DNA from: a virus
Length of the DNA: 22,873 nucleotides
Virus record (IMG/VR): IMGVR_UViG_3300023301_000119
Coordinates: 1-22,873 of that record
Direction: 5' to 3' (one strand)
In this document: piece by piece, positions 556 to 6,543 of the stretch
How the letters are laid out: each line of letters opens with the position of its first letter
How positions within the stretch are numbered: the first letter of the stretch is position 1
The notes under the pieces: model-generated
Database searches by the model: none
Told to the model about the DNA's origin: nothing
The model's input: the letters and a program-made list of their open reading frames with translations, nothing else
Position numbers and translations under genes: made by a program

Positions 556-2701
556 TTTGAACTTCTCGCTGTTGCCGTGGCAGCAAACGGTATTTTCTGA
601 CACGACAAGGTTTAAAGTCATCGCAGCCGGACGGCGGTGCGGTAAGTCGCGCTTGGCTGCGACGACGCTAATTATTGAGGCGCTGAAATGCCCGCTGGGA
701 AGCGCTGTCTTGTACGTCAGCCCGACGATGGGGCAGTCGCGTCAGATTATCTGGGACTTGCTGCTGGAGTTGGGGAGGGACGTCATCCAGTCTAGCCACG
801 TCAACAACTTGGATATTACGCTGGTTAACGGCGCGCGGATATACGTGAGGGGCGCGGACAGGCCGGACACGCTGCGGGGGGTTTCTTTGACATACGCGGT
901 GCTGGACGAGGTGGCCGACATTAAGCCAGAGGCTTGGGAGCAGGTCATCCGGGCGTCTTTGTCGGATCGCAAGGGTCGGGCGATGTTTATTGGTACACCA
1001 AAAGGGCGAAACTGGTTCCACGACTTGTGGAAGCTGGGGCAGGACGAGCAGGACAAAGACTGGAAGAGCTGGCACTTTACGACAGCAGACAATCCGCTGA
1101 TTGACGCGGCGGAGATTGAGTCAGCTAAGAAGACCCTGAGTAGCTTTGCGTTTAAGCAGGAGTATCTGGCGTCTTTTTCGAATGCGGGCGCTGACATGTT
1201 CAAGGAGGAGTGGATTAAGTACGGCGAAGAGCCGGAGTACGGCAGCTACTTTGTGGCGGTTGACTTGGCAGGGTTTGAGGAAGTGGCCAAGCAAGCGGCT
1301 AATAGTAAGAAGCGGCTGGATGAGTCGGCTATTGCGGTGGTCAAGGTGACGGATGACGGCAAATGGTTTGTGAAAGCAATTGAGCATGGGCGGTGGGACA
1401 TACGGGAGACAGCCGCTAAGATACTGCTGGCGATGCGGGAGTATCGACCACTGAGTATTGGCATCGAGAGAGGGGCGCTGAAGAACGCTGTACTGCCGTA
1501 CTTGTCGGACTTGATGCGAAAAAACAACGTGTACAGTCACATTGTGGATTTGACGCACGGCAACCGCAAGAAGACTGACCGGGTGATCTGGTCGTTGCAG
1601 GGACGATTTGAACACGGTAGAATCATACTCAACAGCAAAGAGGACTGGGACGACTTTGTAGATCAGTTGCTGATGTTTCCCTCCCCCGGCGTCCACGACG
1701 ATCTCTGCTTTGCAGCCGGAACAATGATTTCTACGCCGGATGGAGCCAAGCCTATTGAGTCGCTAAAAGTTGGCGACTGGGTGCATACGCCAGAAGGTAA
1801 TCGCCAAGTTACAGCCGCAAAGCTAACCAACCCCACGGCGCAAGTCTACTCATTAAACGATGGCGCGTTGGTAGGCACGGGCAACCACCCAATCATGACG
1901 AACAATGGATGGAAAGACTTGTGCGAACTGGAAAAAGATGATATTCTTGTGTATCAACACAGCAGGAGTTCATCATGGCTTTTCCAAGCAAAGAAGGTAT
2001 TGTCAAAGAAACGGTTATCTTTAACGGCTACCGCTACAACCGCTACCCTGAAGCTAAGAAGCTGGCTCACCGCAGGTACTTCACCAAAGGAGGAGGCGGC
2101 TTTCTGCATAGGGACACTTGGCTTTTCCACAACGGGCCGATTCCCGAAAAGCATCACATCCACCACAAGGACGGAAATTGGTCAAATAACGACATCTCCA
2201 ACTTGGAGTGCTTACCTGCTGCCGATCACCACAAAGAGCACAGCGAAGACCGCAGCCGCAACGCCAAACGGCCTGAACAACTGGCGCACTTGGCTTCAAT
2301 CAATCACATGGCTAAGGCTTGGCATAGTTCTGAAGAGGGGAAAAAATGGCACTCCGAAAACGGCAAGGCTGTTTGGGCTAGTCGGGTTAAAGTTGCGCAC
2401 ACTTGCCAACAATGCAGCCTTGCGTTTGAGTCTTTCAAGCCAACAAAAGTTTACTATTGCTCAGGTAAATGCGCGGCAACTGCGTGGAGAAAAGCGCACC
2501 CTGACTATTACAGCGCTAAAAGCAAGGCATCCCGTTTATAATTTGTCGGTAGCAGGGGCCAAGTGTTACTATGCCAACGGAATACTTGTCCATAACTGCG
2601 ACGCGCTCGCGTACATTGACCAATTGGCTGTAACCAGTTATTTTCAGGACGATGAAGAAAATGACTCTTGGCAACCTCAAGATATAATTGCGGGCGTCTG
2701 A
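548..2701 (+). CDS. terL: Terminase large subunit, interrupted by an intein
   Basis: ATP-driven DNA packaging motor and headful/end nuclease. The ATPase domain shows Walker A AAGRRCGKS (residues 26-34), Walker B TYAVLDE (115-121, acidic D120/E121) and a GTP coupling motif (149-151). The RNase H-like nuclease shows FVAVD (D239), SIGIERG (E307) and the last acidic motif HDDL/CDALAY, which is split by the intein between residue 386 and Cys684. Removing the 297-residue intein leaves about 420 residues, normal to slightly short for a phage TerL. The start overlaps the end of the preceding gene (ATG 548, upstream TGA 553-555), so translation is probably coupled. Because the intein cuts the catalytic nuclease motif, a working packaging enzyme should require protein splicing. 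The family assignment is secure. Whether splicing occurs is inferred from conserved splicing residues. Confidence 0.95.
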   Translation: MSDLNFSLLPWQQTVFSDTTRFKVIAAGRRCGKSRLAATTLIIEALKCPLGSAVLYVSPTMGQSRQIIWDLLLELGRDVIQSSHVNNLDITLVNGARIYVRGADRPDTLRGVSLTYAVLDEVADIKPEAWEQVIRASLSDRKGRAMFIGTPKGRNWFHDLWKLGQDEQDKDWKSWHFTTADNPLIDAAEIESAKKTLSSFAFKQEYLASFSNAGADMFKEEWIKYGEEPEYGSYFVAVDLAGFEEVAKQAANSKKRLDESAIAVVKVTDDGKWFVKAIEHGRWDIRETAAKILLAMREYRPLSIGIERGALKNAVLPYLSDLMRKNNVYSHIVDLTHGNRKKTDRVIWSLQGRFEHGRIILNSKEDWDDFVDQLLMFPSPGVHDDLCFAAGTMISTPDGAKPIESLKVGDWVHTPEGNRQVTAAKLTNPTAQVYSLNDGALVGTGNHPIMTNNGWKDLCELEKDDILVYQHSRSSSWLFQAKKVLSKKRLSLTATATTATLKLRSWLTAGTSPKEEAAFCIGTLGFSTTGRFPKSITSTTRTEIGQITTSPTWSAYLLPITTKSTAKTAAATPNGLNNWRTWLQSITWLRLGIVLKRGKNGTPKTARLFGLVGLKLRTLANNAALRLSLSSQQKFTIAQVNARQLRGEKRTLTITALKARHPVYNLSVAGAKCYYANGILVHNCDALAYIDQLAVTSYFQDDEENDSWQPQDIIAGV
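1964..1968 (+). promoter_or_regulatory. Shine-Dalgarno for the nested HNH gene
   Basis: AGGAG lies six bases before ATG 1975. It sits inside the intein reading frame (residues 473-474), just after block B. Its presence argues that the HNH protein starts independently and is not made as part of the intein polypeptide. Confidence 0.8.
1975..2541 (+). CDS. HNH homing endonuclease nested out of frame in the intein
   Basis: A 188-residue HNH endonuclease. The core runs from about residue 43 to 80: FLHRDTW (43-49), NGPIP (53-57), HIHHKDGN (61-68), then NN (71-72) and NLE (76-78). This is the arrangement of HNH_3-type homing endonucleases. Residues 115-140 hold Trp/Gly/Lys repeats of the GKKWHSENGK type often seen in the DNA-binding tail of such enzymes. 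A zinc-ribbon-like pair follows, C144-x2-C147 and C162-x3-C166. The start has a good Shine-Dalgarno. The stop TAA (2539-2541) falls inside the DNA of intein block F. The gene lies in a different frame from TerL and the intein (positions mod 3: 1 against 2). It would be expected to cut intein-less terL alleles and drive spread of the element, but its target is unknown. Confidence 0.92.
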   Translation: MAFPSKEGIVKETVIFNGYRYNRYPEAKKLAHRRYFTKGGGGFLHRDTWLFHNGPIPEKHHIHHKDGNWSNNDISNLECLPAADHHKEHSEDRSRNAKRPEQLAHLASINHMAKAWHSSEEGKKWHSENGKAVWASRVKVAHTCQQCSLAFESFKPTKVYYCSGKCAATAWRKAHPDYYSAKSKASRL

Positions 2702-4751: not shown

Positions 4752-6543
4752 AAGCCTAGCCAAGCAGCTAATCCTCAAGGGTATGACCGATGAGCAGCAA
4801 AAAGCTGTTCTTGACTCAATCAAGGGGACGATGGAGCAAAGCCGTAAACTGCAAAAGCAGCGCGTCGGCGAGCAAGCTACGCTTGTCATCCAAGCACTAA
4901 AGAAAATTGAGTCAGATATCACTAGCCGCTACGATGCGCTTGGCAACAAGATAACGCAGCGGGTCGGCAGCATTAAAAACGGCGTAGACGGCGCAAAGGG
5001 TCGTGATGGCGTCAACGGGCGCGATGGCAAAGCGGGGCGCGACGGCTCGCAAGGGTCAAAAGGCACTGATGGGCTGGCGGGTCGTAACGGCTTGGACGGC
5101 GAGAACGGCGTATCGGTCACTGACGCACACATCGACTTCGATGGCTCGCTGATTATTAGCCTATCGTCCGGCCAAGTGCTGAACGTGGGTGAGGTAGTAG
5201 CTCCTGACTTGGCTGAGAAGATAAAAGTCATCACCAACGGCGGCGGCACAAGCCAACAGGTGCTTGACACGCTTATCAGCCTTCAAACGCAGATCAACAA
5301 CATTTACCCAAGCCAAACGGGTAACGCGGGCAAGTTCTTAACAACCAATGGAACGAATGTTTCGTGGTCACAAGTGGCAGGCGGCTTAGACTATCAAGGC
5401 ACTTGGAACGCATCTGCCAACACGCCTACCTTGGCAAGCGGCGTCGGCATAAACGGCTACTACTACATTACAAACACAGCCGGTTCAACCAATCTAGACG
5501 GCATTACTGACTGGCAGATTGGTGATTGGCTGCTGTTTAACGGCACAGTTTGGCAAAAGATTGACCAGTCCAACACAGTTGTTTCAGTAAATGGGCAAGT
5601 CGGTATCGTTGTCTTGTCAACTACCGATGTGGGTGAAGGCTCTCGGCTGTACTACACCGATGCACGCGCTAGAGCAGCTATCAGTGCAGGCACAGGCATT
5701 AGCTACAGCAGCGCAACCGGCGTAGTAACTAATTCCGCGCCCGACCAAACGGTAGCGCTTACGCAGGGGGGCACAACAACCATTACTGGTACTTACCCTA
5801 ACTTCACGATTTCATCTGGCGATCAGTTTAGTGGAACCGTAACGTCAGTAGCTGGGACAGGCTCGGTTAACGGCATTTCCCTGTCTGGCACAGTCACCTC
5901 TAGCGGCAGTCTGACGCTCGGCGGCACGTTGTCGGGCGTTAGCCTGACGACTCAGGTGTCTGGCACGCTGCCAGTGGCTAACGGTGGTACGGGCGCTACA
6001 ACTGCGCCAGCCGCGCTAACTAACTTGGGTGCATACCCGAGTAGTAACCCTAATGGCTACACAACCAACACTGGCACGGTTACATCGGTGGCCACGGGTG
6101 CTGGCTTGTCGGGTGGCCCGGTTACATCGGCTGGCACTATTTCGTTGGCCAATACTGCCGTAACTCCAGGCAGCTACACGGCCACTAACATCACGGTGGA
6201 CGCGCAAGGCCGGATTACCGCAGCGGCTAGCGGCGTAAGTGGGGCGGCGCTGTCAAACGACACCAGCACAGCCACGGACGTATTCCCGCTGTTTGCTAAT
6301 GCCACGACAGGCACGCCAGCAACAGTATTTACCAGCAACGCAAAGCTACTTTACAGGCCAAGTACGGGTGAACTCAAGTCTAGCGTTTTGAACGCTACGA
6401 ACGGCATAGTAGTAAACAGCCAAACAGTTGCGGTTAGCTACTCAATTGCAGCAGGCAGCAACGGCATGTCAGTCGGCCCAATAACAGTGGCTTCAGGCCA
6501 AACAGTCACAGTTGCATCCGGCTCACGCTGGGTAGTTTTGTAA
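4741..6543 (+). CDS. Collagen-like tail fibre protein
   Basis: A 600-residue fibre-type protein. Residues 1-70 are predicted helical and charged, possibly a trimerising coiled coil or attachment domain. Residues 81-123 are uninterrupted Gly-X-Y triplets, a collagen-like triple helix. The rest is Gly/Ser/Thr-rich beta sequence with patterns common in phage fibres: TGNAGKFLTTNGTNVSW near 195, LYYTDARARAAI near 300, and VANGGTGATTA near 410. The C-terminus lacks an obvious chaperone or lectin domain. AGGAG at 4729-4733 precedes the ATG, and the start overlaps the portal end by 11 bases. Its place between portal and scaffold is unlike T7 order but occurs in environmental podovirus-like genomes. 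The fibre role is inferred from composition and motifs; the receptor is unknown. Confidence 0.8.
   Translation: MDVESLAKQLILKGMTDEQQKAVLDSIKGTMEQSRKLQKQRVGEQATLVIQALKKIESDITSRYDALGNKITQRVGSIKNGVDGAKGRDGVNGRDGKAGRDGSQGSKGTDGLAGRNGLDGENGVSVTDAHIDFDGSLIISLSSGQVLNVGEVVAPDLAEKIKVITNGGGTSQQVLDTLISLQTQINNIYPSQTGNAGKFLTTNGTNVSWSQVAGGLDYQGTWNASANTPTLASGVGINGYYYITNTAGSTNLDGITDWQIGDWLLFNGTVWQKIDQSNTVVSVNGQVGIVVLSTTDVGEGSRLYYTDARARAAISAGTGISYSSATGVVTNSAPDQTVALTQGGTTTITGTYPNFTISSGDQFSGTVTSVAGTGSVNGISLSGTVTSSGSLTLGGTLSGVSLTTQVSGTLPVANGGTGATTAPAALTNLGAYPSSNPNGYTTNTGTVTSVATGAGLSGGPVTSAGTISLANTAVTPGSYTATNITVDAQGRITAAASGVSGAALSNDTSTATDVFPLFANATTGTPATVFTSNAKLLYRPSTGELKSSVLNATNGIVVNSQTVAVSYSIAAGSNGMSVGPITVASGQTVTVASGSRWVVL
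4981..5109 (+). repeat. Collagen-like Gly-X-Y repeat coding segment
   Basis: Fourteen consecutive Gly-X-Y triplets (fibre residues 81-122, ending at Gly123), mostly with charged X/Y residues such as GRDGVNGRDGKAG. Codons vary between units, so this is a protein-level repeat and not a recent DNA tandem expansion. In phage fibres such segments form rigid trimeric rods. Confidence 0.9.

Follow-up and report, generated by a model that had tools for sequence, protein, structure and literature searches.

An HNH endonuclease gene nested out of frame within the intein of a viral terminase large subunit

The closest published case to the element described here is the ShiLan-type insert of actinobacteriophage methylases, which carries an HNH gene out of frame with its host (Arsenault, Gosselin and Gogarten 2025, PMC11855218); Applejack gp54/gp55 is a comparable case (PMC12613952). 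Both the ShiLan insert and the present element contain an alternate-frame HNH gene in an open host frame, are sporadically distributed, and have a +1 residue that differs from the proline of empty sites. The ShiLan insert lacks intein or intron splicing parts and a detectable ribosome-binding site, and its host is believed to retain it within the protein, whereas here a complete intein surrounds the HNH gene. PMC11855218 also cites, for overlapping frames, a preprint on actinobacteriophage inteins of 'non-canonical architecture' (10.1101/2025.01.02.630785) which may describe similar inteins. Fractured genes (Dassa et al. 2009) reportedly have split inteins with a free-standing endonuclease between their halves, the endonuclease being of a new family there and of the HNH type here. 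In both systems the endonuclease gene lies between the N- and C-intein regions, and some members of the present HNH family are arranged in the same way, whereas our locus and most of its relatives are one continuous, dual-coding ORF. The endonuclease of the fractured genes is reportedly Vsr-like.

Large inteins with a fused endonuclease resemble the present element in their Hint domain, in the endonuclease slot between the splicing blocks, and in their terminase large subunit (TerL) host. Those of mycobacteriophage TerLs carry the endonuclease in frame at sites in the ATPase domain, and both splicing and endonuclease activity have been shown for some (PMC5050341); in the present family the HNH gene is out of frame and most sites lie in the nuclease domain. 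Natural split TerL inteins share the TerL host and a metagenomic phage origin, and are possible descendants of endonuclease-bearing inteins, but they are known as split proteins. AceL-TerL is one such intein. GOS-TerL (cited in PMC7090010) is another. In the literature searched, which had most subscription papers outside its reach, neither an intein with an out-of-frame endonuclease nor a dual-coded state of the natural split TerL inteins was found described.

The window, meaning the whole stretch of DNA analysed here, is an IMG/VR virus record of 22873 bases. It opens with a perfect GGCT tandem repeat (1-72), probably an assembly or library artefact. Immediately ahead of terL lies an ORF (112-555) that matches nothing in Pfam or PHROG and, judged by its position, may encode the small terminase. 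A second IMG/VR contig of 4233 bases (L002) is identical to the window sequence except for two N, and the two possibly come from one sample. On the + strand, an uninterrupted ORF at 548-2701 (stop codon 2699-2701) encodes a TerL precursor of 717 residues, intein included, which matches Terminase_6N (E 7.7e-15) and PHROG 2, terminase large subunit (E 3.4e-47). Comparison with intein-less homologues (L003-L081) delimits an N-extein at 548-1705, comprising the ATPase domain and most of the nuclease domain and ending in HDDL. The 297-residue intein that follows (1706-2596; TerL residues 387-683) is of class 1 type, with Cys387 as intein residue 1, a TxxH block and a terminal His-Asn; it is identified by matches to Hint_2 (E 5.8e-8), Intein_splicing and TIGR01443, by empty sites, and by a Hint fold in the AF2 model. 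Its N-terminal splicing region occupies 1706-1951 (in-house profile E 2.6e-35; pLDDT about 96) and includes block B, TGNH, at 1877-1888. The C-terminal splicing region, VYNLSVAGAKCYYANGILVHN, lies at 2534-2596 (profile E 1.9e-13; TIGR01443 intein_Cterm 25.7 bits, cut-off 15.6). The C-extein, CDALAYIDQLAV..., read from the ORF at 2597-2698, begins with the +1 residue Cys684 (2597-2599), which directly follows HN. The original prediction of an intein with a full set of splicing residues in the TerL frame was therefore correct.

Within this intein, also on the + strand, lies an HNH endonuclease gene of 188 codons plus stop (1975-2541), in the frame one nucleotide before that of the intein. A Shine-Dalgarno-like AGGAG (1964-1968) stands 6 nt ahead of its ATG, and its TAA (2539-2541) falls within the opening stretch of the C-terminal splicing block. 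The product matches Pfam HNH_3 (E 1.1e-14) and PHROG 15471 (E 1.3e-21), confirming the complete nested gene, with its own AGGAG, ATG and TAA, that had been proposed from the sequence. The endonuclease is thus in a different frame from the intein rather than fused to it, and TerL is a single ORF, which separates the locus from the fractured genes. An out-of-frame HNH gene in an open insert is shared with the ShiLan type, but the Hint and intein_Cterm matches identify a splicing domain. Judging from the sequence, the element is most probably a mobile TerL intein whose homing endonuclease is encoded by a separate, overlapping and internally started gene.

A profile scan of viral contigs and 84,980 prokaryote genomes, with candidates screened without a stop filter, placed the nested layout in 114 loci including the window, always with the intein frame at HNH frame + 1. 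The automatic definition, of which an open intein frame and the presence of the C-block are part, gave 111 loci, and L208, L215 and L219 were added after reading. All candidates with a good HNH, both splicing blocks and a continuous ORF had this same relative frame, with the sole exception of a Planctomycetota MAG locus (L200, 3251-4117), in which the HNH gene is nested in the other frame, apparently through a separate nesting event. Loci that combined N-blocks and an HNH gene with stops proved on reading to be split inteins. The comparison of TerL insertion sites suggested in the original prediction recovered mini-intein and out-of-frame versions, while none of the complete relatives has an in-frame HNH, every one being out of frame.

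Among the closer relatives of the window, L082-L084 have HNH proteins 69-71% identical to that of the window and are nested alike. Inspection of relatives for indels or stops showed that L083, L084, L114-L117 and L119 (HNH 63-71% identical) keep both frames open, and the layout therefore cannot stem from indel errors. This check was clean in those seven and not in L118 (1-1144), where the reading frame slips by 1 nt somewhere between N-splicing block and HNH gene; this is either a contig error or a real loss of the continuous frame. L083 also has a second, unrelated-looking HNH-type ORF (50-691) upstream of a small terminase-like gene. Annotated phages with the nested layout are Tetrasphaera phage TJE1, Acinetobacter phage Highwayman and Rhodobacteraceae phage LS06-2018-MD07; in all three the annotation shows TerL alone at the locus, the HNH gene having been missed by gene callers. 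An unannotated gut phage likewise carries an HNH gene beneath TerL. The layout also occurs in prophages of bacteria and archaea, the hosts of the genome hits including Pseudomonadota, Bacteroidota, Bacillota, Chlamydiota, Planctomycetota, Nitrospirota, Patescibacteria and Thermoplasmatota MAGs.

The insertion site was defined with the best 80 TerL relatives in viral contigs, 79 of which are intein-less. These intein-less relatives are up to 92% identical, and empty alleles occur among TerLs of 86-92% identity. Their +1 position is Pro in 77, Val in one and a variant ending in one, with Cys in none. Since empty sites read HDDL^PDA/PDS and invaded sites HDDL^CDA/CDS, the intein interrupts exactly the HDDL/xDA motif that is conserved in the nuclease domain of TerL; its arrival was accompanied by a change from Pro to Cys. 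Across loci, most insertions lie near HDD/DNH...DA of the nuclease domain and occupy several distinct exact positions there; the site of L186 (IIIVDDP^C) is apparently Walker B, judging by its residues, and L224 has its intein at yet another site. In the window clade, host-gene and element relationships are compatible, and codon-position-3 distances among L114-L117 are lower for the element than for TerL. Recent horizontal transfer within this clade was considered and set aside: dual coding itself slows codon position 3 and the groupings match those of the host, so no transfer is claimed.

Several other states of the element are found at the same TerL sites. L087 and L088 are mini-inteins of 126 residues, including the +1 residue, to which the nested form L085 is related. 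L087 and L085 differ by ~520 nt at the HNH slot, with flanks of 93% (left) and 86% (right) DNA identity, and the start and stop of the L085 HNH gene fall in sequence that the mini-intein also has. The L166 intein occurs without an HNH gene in virus vir335, and L090 and phage Mic1 also have mini-inteins. TerL-IntN, HNH and IntC-TerL are separate ORFs in L111, L207, L210, L212, L216, L217, L221, L222 and Vibrio phage 1.245.O; two host ORFs with the endonuclease between them, as in fractured genes, are found in the same L-numbered loci and in L243. The link to split-intein layouts with a free-standing endonuclease that had been suggested is thereby supported, the same HNH family lying between the halves of split TerL inteins. 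In Lactobacillus phage CL2 (L111, 506-2771), terL is split by the intein with the HNH gene in the centre, and the IntC-TerL part (about 2487-2771) is unannotated. In Brochothrix phage BL3 (L244, 709-2607), terL is annotated as a single gene plus gp3 and is actually a split intein gene; a truncated, decayed HNH lies between the intein halves, and gp3 comprises IntC and the TerL C-terminus.

Free-standing HNH genes of the family adjoin terminase genes in PAE1, SN1, EauM-23, Poludnitsa, Ec1-ASingh and BP10, and in several phages the terminase genes beside them are intein-less. In Escherichia phage Ec1-ASingh (L107), a Hint-like domain begins at about 5300-5474, in a head-protein-like gene two after the portal region. 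In the HNH tree a Bacillota clade holds most of the split forms, one falls elsewhere, and the free forms are scattered; because the tree is unrooted and has many weak branches, no direction between mini, nested and split forms is claimed.

In an alignment of 42 HNH proteins, the HNH and Cys4 residues (H63, H64, N76, H85, C144, C147 and C166) are invariant. The sole match to the window HNH in a PDB sequence search is I-HmuI (PDB 1u3e; E 0.005), which is also its top fold match (E 0.09). I-HmuI is likewise a phage HNH homing endonuclease, but it is encoded by a group I intron, just the HNH core aligns well, and the window protein has a Cys4 zinc-binding-like tail. Since many phages have an HNH gene next to terL (Kala et al. 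2014, cited in PMC12613952), the nested protein could instead be a terminase packaging cofactor, and the TerL association of the family, with free-standing copies adjoining terminase genes, fits such a role. We consider this unlikely, given that the 79 nearest TerL relatives have no intein or HNH at the site, that HNH-less mini-inteins and a decayed HNH occupy the same sites, and that the family belongs to HNH_3, with I-HmuI as the sole PDB sequence match.

Clustering the 108 loci with a recognised N-block at 70% HNH identity gave 84 clusters. The HNH start is ATG in 74 of these 84, at a median position of intein residue 88, and the stop falls at the start of the C-block with a median overlap of 7 nt. 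Shine-Dalgarno matches of at least 5 letters precede 36 of 108 nested starts, compared with 3.3% of control windows, and matches of at least 4 letters precede 54 of 108, compared with 11.8%; the controls were windows in the corresponding TerL frame, with the best of several start codons picked likewise. A clear Shine-Dalgarno site is missing in half of the nested HNH genes. Programmed -1 frameshifting into a TerL-N/intein-N/HNH fusion would be another way to express the protein: the step from intein to HNH frame is -1, slippery-type heptamers lie within 150 nt in 18 of 84 clusters against 8% of control windows, and Shine-Dalgarno-like sites can stimulate frameshifting, as established for dnaX. 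As a general mechanism it is nonetheless improbable, for most nested loci have no slippery heptamer, the ATG holds a constant place, strong Shine-Dalgarno-like sites are tenfold enriched at start-codon spacing, L200 would require a +1 shift, and the HNH gene is an independent ORF in the split relatives. From the excess of heptamers, frameshifting may still operate in a minority of loci.

Structure prediction supports the proposed intein with a separate endonuclease. In the AF2 model of the intein, residues 1-85 and 265-297 have a pLDDT of about 95 and the middle 36-64, mostly below 65, so that the Hint fold is confident and the intein-frame stretch across the HNH gene appears as a disordered loop within it; the HNH protein, modelled in its own frame, has a pLDDT of 93. 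The best Foldseek match of the intein model is the gp41-1 intein (PDB 6qaz; E 4.8e-6), and no other solved structure is nearer to the splicing domain in sequence (E 2.5e-19) or in fold, although gp41-1 is split and its host gene is a helicase. The window shows the class 1 features of Cys1, TxxH, Asn followed by Cys+1, and a Hint fold. Among 44 aligned inteins, two of them HNH-less, C1, H61 and N297 are invariant and the block B Thr is present in at least 90%; the +1 residue is Cys in the window and Cys or Ser in relatives. It is very improbable that the insert fails to splice and that the whole loop is retained in TerL, as proposed for the ShiLan methylase element, a published insert whose HNH gene is out of frame and which has no splicing residues (PMC11855218): the class 1 residues are invariant over a diverse set, the blocks fold as a Hint domain, and the insert sits within the nuclease active-site motif of an essential enzyme. 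HNH and intein distances are weakly correlated; tight co-diversification of the HNH and splicing domains was rejected, as a Mantel r of just 0.13 shows that they did not simply diversify together as a single unit.

Evidence for the dual-coding intein also comes from the absence of stops from its frame. Expected stops were obtained by redrawing the HNH codons from the codon usage of local genes while keeping the protein. Across the 114 nested loci, the intein frame contains no stops where 383 are expected. In the corresponding frame, free-standing HNH genes have 59 stops (51 expected) and those of split inteins 61 (46 expected), giving a pooled 120 against 97 for the family outside a continuous intein. 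L200 has 5 stops in the usual frame and none in the frame used by its intein (5.6 expected, P 0.0025). In nested HNH genes, none of 126 Met codons precedes a codon starting with A, compared with 22 of 44 outside continuous inteins, and Leu or Val codons before such a codon end in TA or TG in 0 of 283 cases, compared with 1062 of 1806 (59%) in TerL exteins. The free-standing HNH genes of L108 and L184 (1260-1862) have an open intein-side frame, which is uninformative because these loci are GC-rich and about 0.5-1 stops are expected; L184 could be a recent escapee.

For the window by itself, 3.0 stops are expected in the intein frame and none is present (P = 0.025), far weaker evidence than the order of 1 in 10,000 originally estimated for chance openness, and insufficient on its own to decide either way. 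The other frame of the window HNH has 15 stops where 14 are expected. With 14 expected in one frame and 3 in the other, just one frame is easily reachable, so a single origin of the common frame need not be invoked; L200 is a case in which the other frame was usable. That one gene has been broken by sequencing or assembly indels, or that the intein frame is open by luck, agrees with the modest P value of the window and with the shift in L118 but is hardly credible, and is refuted for the class, as >100 loci from independent assemblies and from finished phage genomes have the layout in common, L200 is free of stops in the frame read by its intein and closed in the other, and relatives outside a continuous intein show the expected numbers of stops.

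The two frames of the dual-coding intein differ in what is conserved. Over 83 pairs, which share sequences and are not independent, amino acid identity is 65% in the HNH frame, 40% in the intein frame and 39% in the unused third frame, identifying the HNH frame as the conserved one. HNH codon positions 1, 2 and 3 differ by 0.28, 0.23 and 0.52 in these pairs. From these comparisons, the HNH frame is under purifying selection, and the intein frame across it is stop-free filler selected mainly to avoid stops. The same figures led to rejection of the idea that the intein-frame protein is evenly conserved along the HNH gene. The original prediction of selection on the intein frame accordingly holds for its openness and fails for a conserved protein sequence, while the comparative data support its claim that one stretch of DNA encodes two separate proteins.

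The layout is real, under selection and widespread, and it probably functions as a mobile two-gene intein. The long frame would be translated as a TerL precursor, in which the N- and C-splicing blocks would fold into a Hint domain while a loop of ~170 residues, translated from the HNH gene in the wrong frame, protrudes; excision of the intein would then yield a working TerL. The HNH protein would be started separately within the same message and would cut intein-less terL near the HDDL/PDA site, whereupon repair would copy the whole insert into the empty allele, with Cys replacing Pro at +1. We infer the steps after translation, and homing itself from the patchy presence of the element and the HNH_3/I-HmuI relationship.

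More tentatively, dual-coded inteins may be stable and widespread endonuclease carriers in which the endonuclease is free from the start, forming one station of a cycle and a route to natural split inteins; we regard this as a possibility rather than the favoured account. Such a cycle would pass from mini-intein to nested HNH, to a split intein with HNH between its halves, and to a split intein with the HNH lost. Once the HNH gene starts independently, the intein frame could tolerate a stop or a shift if the C-terminal part gained a start. One TerL motif thus offers empty, mini, dual-coded, split with endonuclease, and split with decayed endonuclease states for comparison, and because the family includes cultured phages, splicing, internal initiation and homing are directly testable. 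The element is also a clean natural example of a long same-strand overlap, with one frame encoding a conserved enzyme and the other kept free of stops as the main effect of selection, and gene callers hide its nested HNH gene. The finding bears on how inteins acquire endonucleases and on how natural split inteins arise.
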